Positions 25,207-28,668 of a DNA stretch of 34,458 bases are shown here, one piece after another. Where the stretch lies: assembly GCA_003221035.1 (NCBI GenBank), contig QHUB01000042.1, forward strand, positions 1 to 34,458, in the 5' to 3' direction. The notes under the pieces are model-generated. The model was not told the DNA's origin, searched no databases, and saw only the letters and a list, made by a program, of their open reading frames with translations. The first letter of the stretch is position 1. The number at the start of each line of letters is the position of its first letter. The stretch comes from Gemmatimonadota bacterium (lineage in GTDB: Bacteria; Gemmatimonadota; Gemmatimonadetes; Gemmatimonadales; GWC2-71-9). The translations under genes and the position numbers were made by a program.

Positions 25207-25239
25207 TCAAACGCACCATATCACTGCAGATTGGCGCCC

Positions 25240-28200
25240 ATGCGCACCCTCATCTGCCTCGCCCTGTGCTCTTCGCTCGCCACCGTGGCCGCACAACAAC
25301 CGCGCGTGCTCGTCTTCTCCAAGACCGCCGCGTTTCGGCACAGCTCGATCCCCAACGGCGTCGCCGCGATCACAAAGCTCGGTCTCGAGAATGGCTTCGC
25401 GGTGGACGCCACTGAGGACGCCACCGCCTTCACGCAAAAGAACCTGTCGCGCTACGCCGCCGTGGTCTTTCTGAACACGACGGGCGACGTCCTGAACGCG
25501 GCGCAGCAGGATGTGTTCGAGCGTTACATCCAGGCGGGCGGCGGGTACTGCGGCGTGCACTCCGCGACGGACACCGAGTACGACTGGCCGTGGTACGGCC
25601 GGCTGGCCGGCGCCTACTTCAACGGCCATCCGGGCAACCCCAACGTCCGGCACGGCCGTTACCGCGTGCTCGACACGACGCATGTCTCGACGAAAGGCAT
25701 GCCGCTGAGCTTCGAGCGCGACGACGAGTTCTATAACTTCAAGTCGATCGATCCGACCATCCACGTGCTCGTCGAGATCGACGAGACGAGTTACGAGGGC
25801 GGCACCAACGGCGCGCATCACCCCATGAGCTGGTATCACGATGTCGACGGCGGACGCGCGTGGTATACCAACATGGGACACACCGAAGCGACCTACACCG
25901 AGCCGCTCTTCCTGCAGCACCTGCTCGGCGGGCTGCGCTACGCGATCGGGACCGGCACGGTCGATTTCAGTCGCGCCCGACCCGAAGAGAACCGATTCAC
26001 GCGCGTCGTGCTCGCCGACAAGCTCGATGAGCCGATCGAAGTGGCCGTGCTGCCAGGCGCGGATGAACGTGTGGTGTTCATCGAGCGCCACGGGTACGTG
26101 AATCTGTATAAGCGGGCCGACGGCAGCGTGCGCCGCATCGCGACGATCCCGGTCAGCACGAAGTACGCCGACTCGAGCCAGGCAGAAGACGGTCTGCTCG
26201 GCCTCGCCGCCGATCCCGGCTTCGCGACGAACGGCTGGCTCTACATGTACTACTCGCCGGCCGGGCCGGACGCGAAGAACGTGCTCGCGCGGTTCACGAT
26301 GGTGGGCGACTCACTCGATCTCGCGTCGAAAAAAGTGATGCTCGAGATCCCGACGCAACGGCGCGCGTGCTGTCACACCGGCGGCTCGATCGCGTTCGAT
26401 GCGCACGGCAATCTCTTGCTCTCGACCGGCGACAACAGCAATCCGTTCGCGACGAACTACGCGCCGATCGACGAACGTCCCGGCCGCGAGCCCTGGGACG
26501 CCCAGAAGTCGTCGGCGAATACGAACGATCTGCGGGGCAAGATCCTGCGCATCCATCCCGAGCCGGATGGCACGTACACGATCCCCGATGGCAACTTGTT
26601 CCCCCTCTCCCAACGGGAGAGGGGGTCAGGGGGTGAGGCCACGCGGGGCATGGCGAAGACGCGGCCCGAGATCTACACGATGGGCCATCGGAATCCGTAC
26701 CGGATCTCGATAGACAAGCACACCGGATTCCTGTACTGGGGCGAGGTCGGTCCCGACGCCGACACCGACTCGGCCGGCCACGGACCGCGCGGCTACGACG
26801 AGATCAATCAGGCGCGCAGCGCGGGCAATTACGGCTGGCCCTATGTCATCGCGAACAACCAGGCCTATAACCACACGCGATTCCTGGATTCGACGACGAC
26901 GGAGACTGGCCCACTGTTCGACGTGGCGCGCCCGGTCAACAACTCCCCGAACAACACGGGTCGTGACACGCTGCCGCCGGCGCGCGGCGCGTTCATCTGG
27001 TATCCGTATGCGCCGTCGCCCGATTTTCCGATCGTGGGCACCGGGGGACGCACCGCGGAGGCGGGTCCCGTCTTTTACCGCGACGATTTCACGAACGCGC
27101 CGCGGGCCTTTCCACAGTATTACGACGGCAAGCTGTTCATCTACGAATTCATGCGCCACTGGATCATGGCCGTCACCATGGACAAGAATGGCGACCTGGT
27201 CTCGATCGAGCAGTTCATGCCGAGCGCCAGGTTCGCCGCGCCGATCGAGATGGAATTCGCGCCGAGCGGGGACCTGTACATCCTGGAGTACGGCACAATC
27301 TGGTTCCAGGGCAACGACGACGCCCGACTCGTGCGCGTCGAGTACAATGCCGGCAATCGCAAGCCGATCGTTGCGGCCGCGGTCGACCATCCCAAAGGCG
27401 CGCTCCCGCTGAAGGTCTCACTCTCCTCGGCGGGCACGGTGGATCTCGACGAAGACTCGCTCACGTACGACTGGAAGATCACGCAGCATGGCAAAGTGGT
27501 GGCGCGGTCGACCGCGCCGAACCCCGGCATCACGTTCCGCCAGGCGGGGACCTACACGGCCACACTGACGGTGACCGACACGCACGGCGCCACCGCCACC
27601 GCCGCGCCGATCGACATGGTCGCGGGCAATCAGCCGCCGGCAGTGCGCATCGATGTCGTCAGCGGGAACAGCACGTTCTTCTTCCCCGATGTGCCCCTGC
27701 ACTACGCGGTGCGCGTGACCGACCGCGAAGACGGCACGCTGAAGAGCGGCCGGATCGCCGCCCGCAGCGTCACGGTGAACGCGCAGTATCTCAAGGACGG
27801 AGGCGGGTCGAATCCCGTCGAGCAGGGACGGCAGCTGCTCGAGGCTGGTGACTGCCTGTCCTGCCATCAGCTGAGTCGCAAGTCGATCGGGCCCGCCTAC
27901 ACCGACGTCGCGCGCAAGTATCAGAACGACAGTGCGGCGACCGCGCGGCTGGCCAGGAAGATTCGCGAGGGCGGATCCGGCGTGTGGGGACCGGTCGCGA
28001 TGCCGGCGCATCCCGCGCTCAGCGACGCAGAGGCCACGGAGATCGTGGCCTACATCAGGAGCCTCGCCGACACAGCCGTGGGGGCACGCCCCACGAGCAT
28101 GCCCACGCGTGGCTCCTACACGCCCCCCGCAGGCTCGGCAGACGCGCCGCAAGGCGTGCTGCAGCTCCGCGCGTCGTACAAGGATCGCGGGGCGAACGGC

Positions 28201-28668
28201 GTGCCGCCGATTACCACCGCGCAGACGCTCGAGCTGCGCTCGCCGACAGTGATCCTGGCGAACGCGGACCTGTCGGACGGCGTGTCGAAGCAGACGGACG
28301 CCCGCATGCCGGTTCCGTTTGTGCTGGTGAATCGCTCGGGCTCATCGGTAGCGCTGCGGCACATCGATCTCACCGGCGTCAGTGCCGTGACGTTCATGGT
28401 CGCGGCGCCCGCGGCATATCAGGCGAAGGGCGGAAAGATCGCCGTGTATCGCGATTCCCTGACCGGGACCTTACTGGGTGAGAGCGAGCCGATTGCGCCC
28501 AGCACGGACGAAGCGCCCGTCCCCCGGCGGGTGGCTCTGCAAGCGACGGCCGGACCGCATGATCTCTACTGCGTCTTCACGAATCCCGACACGGCCGGGG
28601 GATTCTTGTTTGTGGTAATGACGGCGACGTTCGAGGCTCAGAGCCCAAAGAAGCCCGCGGCTCCCTGA
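25240..28668 (+). CDS. ThuA / sugar-dehydrogenase propeller / PKD / cytochrome c / CBM-like fusion
   Basis: A 1142-residue exported protein (signal LICLALCSSLATVAAQ). Domain order: ThuA-like (about 20-240; GGGYCGVHSATDT, HHPMSWYH, MGHTEATY); PQQ-type sugar-dehydrogenase propeller (about 250-705; EDGLLGLAADPGF, NDLRGKILRIHPEPDG, RPEIYTMGHRNPYRIS, APIEMEFAPSGDLYILEYG); PKD domain (about 707-795); an Ig-like segment; cytochrome c (about 860-945; haem site CLSCH at 872-876, likely Met ligand M921 in VAMPAH); and a C-terminal beta-sandwich resembling CBM6 (about 970-1135). ThuA proteins act in keto-sugar pathways. The fusion suggests sugar oxidation with electrons passed to the haem. A palindromic repeat interrupts the propeller at 455-470. 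Start ATG 25240 has a poor ribosome site. Confidence 0.9.
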   Translation: MRTLICLALCSSLATVAAQQPRVLVFSKTAAFRHSSIPNGVAAITKLGLENGFAVDATEDATAFTQKNLSRYAAVVFLNTTGDVLNAAQQDVFERYIQAGGGYCGVHSATDTEYDWPWYGRLAGAYFNGHPGNPNVRHGRYRVLDTTHVSTKGMPLSFERDDEFYNFKSIDPTIHVLVEIDETSYEGGTNGAHHPMSWYHDVDGGRAWYTNMGHTEATYTEPLFLQHLLGGLRYAIGTGTVDFSRARPEENRFTRVVLADKLDEPIEVAVLPGADERVVFIERHGYVNLYKRADGSVRRIATIPVSTKYADSSQAEDGLLGLAADPGFATNGWLYMYYSPAGPDAKNVLARFTMVGDSLDLASKKVMLEIPTQRRACCHTGGSIAFDAHGNLLLSTGDNSNPFATNYAPIDERPGREPWDAQKSSANTNDLRGKILRIHPEPDGTYTIPDGNLFPLSQRERGSGGEATRGMAKTRPEIYTMGHRNPYRISIDKHTGFLYWGEVGPDADTDSAGHGPRGYDEINQARSAGNYGWPYVIANNQAYNHTRFLDSTTTETGPLFDVARPVNNSPNNTGRDTLPPARGAFIWYPYAPSPDFPIVGTGGRTAEAGPVFYRDDFTNAPRAFPQYYDGKLFIYEFMRHWIMAVTMDKNGDLVSIEQFMPSARFAAPIEMEFAPSGDLYILEYGTIWFQGNDDARLVRVEYNAGNRKPIVAAAVDHPKGALPLKVSLSSAGTVDLDEDSLTYDWKITQHGKVVARSTAPNPGITFRQAGTYTATLTVTDTHGATATAAPIDMVAGNQPPAVRIDVVSGNSTFFFPDVPLHYAVRVTDREDGTLKSGRIAARSVTVNAQYLKDGGGSNPVEQGRQLLEAGDCLSCHQLSRKSIGPAYTDVARKYQNDSAATARLARKIREGGSGVWGPVAMPAHPALSDAEATEIVAYIRSLADTAVGARPTSMPTRGSYTPPAGSADAPQGVLQLRASYKDRGANGVPPITTAQTLELRSPTVILANADLSDGVSKQTDARMPVPFVLVNRSGSSVALRHIDLTGVSAVTFMVAAPAAYQAKGGKIAVYRDSLTGTLLGESEPIAPSTDEAPVPRRVALQATAGPHDLYCVFTNPDTAGGFLFVVMTATFEAQSPKKPAAP
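26601..26638. repeat. Palindromic repeat inserted in frame in the fusion gene
   Basis: A perfect 11-bp stem (26601-26611 CCCCCTCTCCC; 26615-26625) with a 3-nt loop AAC, followed by TCAGGGGGTGAGG. It encodes PLSQRERGSGGEA between GNLF and the propeller motif TRPEIYTMGHRNPY. From general knowledge, peptides of this kind (PLSQRERG.GGEG, PSPSGRG.GGEG) are tell-tale translations of dispersed palindromic repeats in many bacterial genomes. Confidence 0.75.

Follow-up and report, generated by a model that had tools for sequence, protein, structure and literature searches.

Short palindromic repeats that lie within bacterial genes have been described in two settings. The Rickettsia palindromic elements (RPEs), 105-146 bp long and known from Rickettsia, have been reviewed by Delihas (2008; PMC2229807), and the RPE in the Rickettsia guanylate kinase was reported to have a neutral or mildly harmful effect. 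REPs carrying a GTAG or CGTC tag also occur in genes, where they encode residues within the ORFs of known proteins (Di Nocera et al., 2013; PMC3733652); in one such case, recB, the repeat lies at about the same site in two species. A further class, the BoxC/PIT/TM or intrastrand triplex repeats, has been reported from more than 260 bacterial genomes and has no known mover. Its E. coli form comprises 23 copies, always intergenic, with three G in both arm and tail, and was shown to form a triplex in vitro (Holder et al., 2015; PMC4666352, Table 1). Our search of the open-licence literature turned up neither a BoxC/TM repeat described within a gene nor an element of this kind described from Gemmatimonadota.

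A BoxC/TM-Type Palindrome Within a Propeller Gene

The window analyzed here is a stretch of 34,458 nucleotides from a Gemmatimonadota bacterium (contig QHUB01000042.1), and it contains a BoxC/TM-type palindromic element of 41 nt at 26598-26638 on the forward strand. Read directly, this copy is GTT-CCCCCTCTCCC-AAC-GGGAGAGGGGG-TCA-GGGGGTGAGG: following the GTT spacer there is a left, pyrimidine arm (CCCCCTCTCCC, 26601-26611), the hairpin loop AAC (26612-26614), a right, purine arm (GGGAGAGGGGG, 26615-26625), the spacer TCA, and a third block (GGGGGTGAGG, 26629-26638) that is the mirror image of the purine arm, all on the forward strand. The preliminary description had recognized the perfect 11-bp stem, the 3-nt loop and the G-rich tail ending at 26638, all of which we recover, but it placed the start at 26601, while the repeat unit begins at the GTT, at 26598. 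Folding of the window copy as single-stranded DNA (duplex hairpin folding) gave −13.6 kcal/mol, with a z score of −2.5.

The host gene (25231-28668, forward strand) encodes an 1145-aa fusion of ThuA, a GSDH beta-propeller, PKD and cytochrome c, and its reading frame runs uninterrupted across the element, as had been noted. The insert lies within the GSDH domain (glucose/sorbosone dehydrogenase, a PQQ-type propeller; 26023-26901, forward strand), assigned by family match and AlphaFold, with the Pfam match spanning residues 265-557. We compared the protein with 84 homologues sharing 43-81% identity; they came from within the genus, from the order, and from a set of 80 named genomes, among which the Gemmatimonadetes MAGs AG16, palsa_1239, and RYN_356 gave the nearest, placing the window in Gemmatimonadota. 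The 13 codons of LSQRERGSGGEAT (26605-26643, forward strand; the insert region of the window protein reads SQRERGSGGEATR) are missing in all 84, and at this site almost all of them have an unbroken GNLFP-[K/P]GT-KTRPEIYTM. The insert, earlier put at 13-18 residues, thus amounts to a net gain of 13 residues (39 bp), the lower figure, because the preceding F-P occurs in the homologues too. A congeneric orthologue, L034 in genome G001, has no insert at the window site and instead contains, some 150 residues upstream, a separate copy that is likewise in frame (YKAS-ASPVSGTERGSGGE-VRR); therefore, the ThuA-GSDH gene has been struck twice, at different places in two species.

An AlphaFold model built with a 50-sequence alignment gave a confident propeller (mean pLDDT 89, pTM 0.90), whose best matches among solved structures are the PQQ-type sugar dehydrogenases 2ism, 7cdy, and 3a9g. 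Internally, pLDDT falls below 50 only at residues 212-216 of 470, inside the insert, and the conserved GHRNP motif begins some 15 residues after the insert. Judged by this model, the insert is most likely a floppy, unstructured surface loop of the GSDH propeller, neutral or slightly to mildly harmful, an effect that would resemble the one reported for the RPE of guanylate kinase. From the intact frame we infer that the protein tolerates it.

A Dispersed Repeat With a Conserved Anatomy

Searching the 3.36-Mb genome with the exact right half of the element returned eight matches, as compared to none for the reversed control, and allowing up to three mismatches returned 28 as compared to three; this excess indicates a true dispersed repeat and not chance. 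There are about 27 dispersed copies in the window's genome, and between two and 24 in each of nine other species of the genus, so the palindrome noticed from a single copy does have relatives elsewhere. Across the phylum, the pattern is present in 72 of 298 sampled genomes, with the carriers clustering in f1, the family of the window, and in f6, a second family of the class.

The 129 copies with a recognizable left arm yield the consensus GT[T/C]-CCCCCTCTCC-loop-GGAGAGGGGG-NCA-GGGGGTGAGG, usually followed by NC; the unit is about 41-54 nt long, with GT[T/C]CC at one end and TGAGG-NC at the other. The tail GGGGGTGAGG is identical in 113 of the 129, which is partly a selection effect, because the copies were found by that half. 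The apical loops vary, and yet the first apical pair is complementary in 104 of 106 copies (46 expected on shuffling), so the hairpin is maintained through compensatory changes. Some copies (L254, L284, L287, L292, and L259) are complete palindromes, with the tail on both sides. In about a dozen copies (L002, L011, L062, L064, L262, L266, L285, and L298 among them) the loop is 28-38 nt long and is itself hairpin-like (AGCCTGCCCTGAGC-GAAGCGAAGG), giving the impression of two nested repeats.

The tail is the mirror image of the purine arm, and neither a direct nor an inverted copy of it. All 10 positions of the third block are compatible, by sequence, with reverse-Hoogsteen, class II triads (eight G.GC, one A.AT, and one T.AT). 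The resemblance to BoxC/PIT/TM(ECO) covers the CCCTCTCC arm, the short loop, the GGAGAGGG arm, the 3-nt spacer and the mirror block GGGTGAGG, in which the T occupies the corresponding triad, as well as numerous dispersed copies with no transposase found alongside. Moreover, the numbers of G in arm and tail shift together: they are 3/3 in the E. coli form, 4/4 in G115, 5/5 in the window's genus, and 5/5 and 6/6 in G301, where the spacer is CCG (counts from the matched strings and from Table 1 of PMC4666352). With a G/C-rich hairpin, a mirror third block after a 3-nt spacer, and many dispersed copies, the Gemmatimonadota element is by its anatomy of the BoxC/PIT/TM type; its triads are putative, and in a sequence this short and low in complexity kinship and convergence would look the same. 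It differs from the E. coli form in having five G in both arm and tail (four in G115, five to six in G301), and in its location, since over a third of the copies in the genus are in frame within genes and are not strictly intergenic.

Copies in Genes and Between Genes

To score the flanks of 132 copies from ten congeneric species, we used a codon-usage model for which the genes of the window served as the training set. Copies of both kinds were found, coding and intergenic. Fifty of the 132 are read through in frame (45 with strong and five with weak support), or about 47 distinct copies once the double-tailed palindromes are merged; 30 of the 50 are in sense and 20 in antisense orientation. 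Thirteen copies lie between same-strand coding flanks in different frames, and most of these resemble gene ends, with the element providing the stop or standing ahead of the next start; the remaining copies are intergenic or beside genes. If the 47 and the 13 copies are all intragenic, 47 of 60 are in frame as compared to 5/18 expected for random junctions (p ~6e-16), a figure that depends on the codon-usage classifier and counts some orthologous copies twice. At gene ends, several copies (L256, L263, L264, L272, and L286) give the last codons or directly precede the start of the next gene.

Among the genes hit in the window's own genome are those for a sugar transporter, a WYL regulator (two copies), an ASPIC/FG-GAP protein, Vps10/BNR proteins, an M28 peptidase, a DUF1800 protein, an M56-HEAT protein (two copies), and a Memo protein; to these we would add two putative Tmtc-like membrane proteins and a putative amidase-like protein, which we read from their sequences and not from Pfam hits. 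Orthologues that have no copy of the element were seen for ThuA-GSDH, ASPIC, a Vps10-like protein, both Tmtc-like proteins, DUF1800, and Memo.

A palindrome lying in frame in unrelated conserved protein genes, and also between genes, is reminiscent of RPEs. The comparison with the Rickettsia palindromes made in the preliminary description therefore holds as an analogy for in-frame insertion, but not as an identity: the sequence is of the BoxC/PIT/TM type, and the element differs from RPEs in its unit of about 41-54 nt, its triplex-type structure, and its 3-4 Mb Gemmatimonadota genomes.

In-frame copies are common in the window's genus and in G034 (15 of 53 copies) and occasional in G064 and G024, all in the larger sample, whereas only one of 63 is in frame in G115, G301, G134, and G066. 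A small sample from outside the genus (1 of 41 in frame) had made in-gene copies look peculiar to the window's genus, an idea that the larger sample overturned.

Probable Repeated Insertion Into the Same Loops

Several orthologous proteins carry copies in the same loop that differ in orientation or frame between species. In the ASPIC protein, translation of the window genome's own copy gives GSPSPEGRGGQGVRP; in the G003 orthologue this loop contains two copies in tandem, read in another frame (FPLSRRERGAGGED). The own copy of the Tmtc-like L016 is in sense orientation and that of G001 in antisense. In DUF1800, the own copy is in sense and follows the residues DMR, while the G007 copy is in antisense and precedes them. 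For Memo, the copies of the window's genome and of G003 are antisense, and those of G001 and G006 are sense. A fifth pair of this kind is L235/L289, in what we take, from its ALLKIQDGCD motif, to be a radical-SAM methylthiotransferase gene. Given these differences, the five loops were struck more than once; their copies cannot each be explained as a single, unaltered ancestral insertion.

Other sites are shared more simply. In WYL, M28, Tmtc L017, the L064/L299 gene, and Memo (own and G003 copies), the site, orientation and frame are common to the species, and these copies may be ancestral. Antisense copies directly after AAAPRV were also observed in M56/BlaR1-type proteins of three genera (L020 on contig C83 of the window's genome, L334 in G034, and L373 in G064), and these shared-site copies could represent one old insertion or repeated hits. 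DUF1800-type proteins of two genera (L254 in G003, L287 in G007, and L347 in G034) have copies at the same point, SVAPG-insert-GINENYARE.

The sharing of site, orientation and frame in WYL, M28, Tmtc L017, and Memo (own and G003) is what would be expected if the copies in shared loops were single ancestral insertions that were later flipped or converted, and for the full palindromic form template switching offers a possible route to inversion. As a general account, we consider this possible but unlikely: the DUF1800 junctions are on different sides of the conserved DMR codons, the ASPIC copies are in different frames, and the ThuA copies are at different sites.

Insertion Junctions and the Search for a Mover

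Compared with element-free orthologues, the net gain for a 41-nt unit is 39 bp in the window, 33 bp in the ThuA gene of G001, 36 bp in ASPIC and Vps10, and 24 bp at two Tmtc sites, in comparisons between orthologues that differ by 20-30%. These gains are below 41 nt and uneven, which suggests that a variable number of target bases is missing. No constant target duplication, which along with terminal inverted repeats and a matching transposase would mark a MITE, is visible at the sites compared with element-free orthologues. The flank logos likewise speak against a fixed target duplication, giving only GT at the left end, a preceding C in about two thirds of the copies, and NC at the right end. 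In the window, the left junction falls on a TT[T/C]CC already found in relatives, which may reflect microhomology or coincidence.

A hairpin with a conserved single-stranded flank, occurring in some inverted pairs, is REP/BIME-like, and there is one weak Y1_Tnp match in the window's genome; like the intragenic GTAG/CGTC REPs, the element is a short palindrome that encodes residues inside ORFs. Nevertheless, mobilization as a REP by a RAYT (Y1_Tnp) transposase is very unlikely. The element has another sequence, its conserved end has no GTAG or CGTC tag, and it is not associated with RAYTs: the sole RAYT-like gene is flanked by another repeat (GTAGGGGCGCAGCATGCTGCGCCCC), no Y1_Tnp match was obtained in G007 (97% complete, 21 copies) or in G075 (93% complete, 18-19 copies), and several genomes with strong RAYTs (G022, G031, and G079) have zero copies of the element. 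That RAYT-like Y1_Tnp gene, the only one in the window's genome, encodes 176 aa (L029, C101:21846-25115), and the palindrome GTAGGGGCGCAGCATGCTGCGCCCC beside it is a typical GTAG-tagged REP; thus, at least two palindrome families coexist in this genome.

Origin and Significance of the Inserts

We consider it very probable that the element is a dispersed, selfish mobile palindrome of the BoxC/PIT/TM type whose insertions are widespread and persist within genes only if they are in frame and in a tolerant loop. The earlier proposal, that a mobile palindrome made a new peptide loop which the protein tolerates, is thereby strengthened, as neither of the findings named beforehand as refuting it was obtained: the insert is absent from all 84 homologues, and the element is multicopy, both in coding sequence and between genes. 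On this reading, the element would insert regardless of reading frame; the junctions would differ by a few bases, and some target bases would often be lost. Within genes, an insertion would survive only if it preserved the frame, encountered no stop and was placed in a tolerant loop, so that each survivor would look like a new peptide loop of 8-15 residues.

If the inserts were instead selected as functional peptide loops or adaptive linkers, the filling of the same loops in several species and the persistence of the shared WYL and M56 sites would be accounted for; we find this highly improbable, since at a given loop the orientation and frame, and hence the peptide, are not constant from species to species, unrelated genes are struck, most orthologues have no insert, and the predicted loop is poorly defined. 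That we are looking at a repeat-driven assembly artefact, or at contamination in a draft metagenome bin, is scarcely credible: the genomes of the genus are drafts of 100-420 contigs and the repeat is short and GC-rich, but it is shorter than a read, and frames are kept in about 50 places, in many different genes of ten separately assembled species.

Our tentative and rather doubtful proposal is that a hairpin able to form a triplex might spread with no transposase of its own, through replication stalling and template switching at the triplex, for instance, and that in orthologous proteins it might add short peptides to the same tolerant loops time and again. Since a given protein loop may be filled or empty, and may have the repeat in opposite orientations or in different frames, both the movement of these repeats and the acceptance of a random peptide by the loop are directly testable. 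The copies in genes show that repeats of this type enter coding sequence to an extent similar to that in Rickettsia, in genomes of ordinary size; and if the proposal is true, new protein segments would arise recurrently from a transposase-free triplex hairpin in a bacterial family with such genomes.
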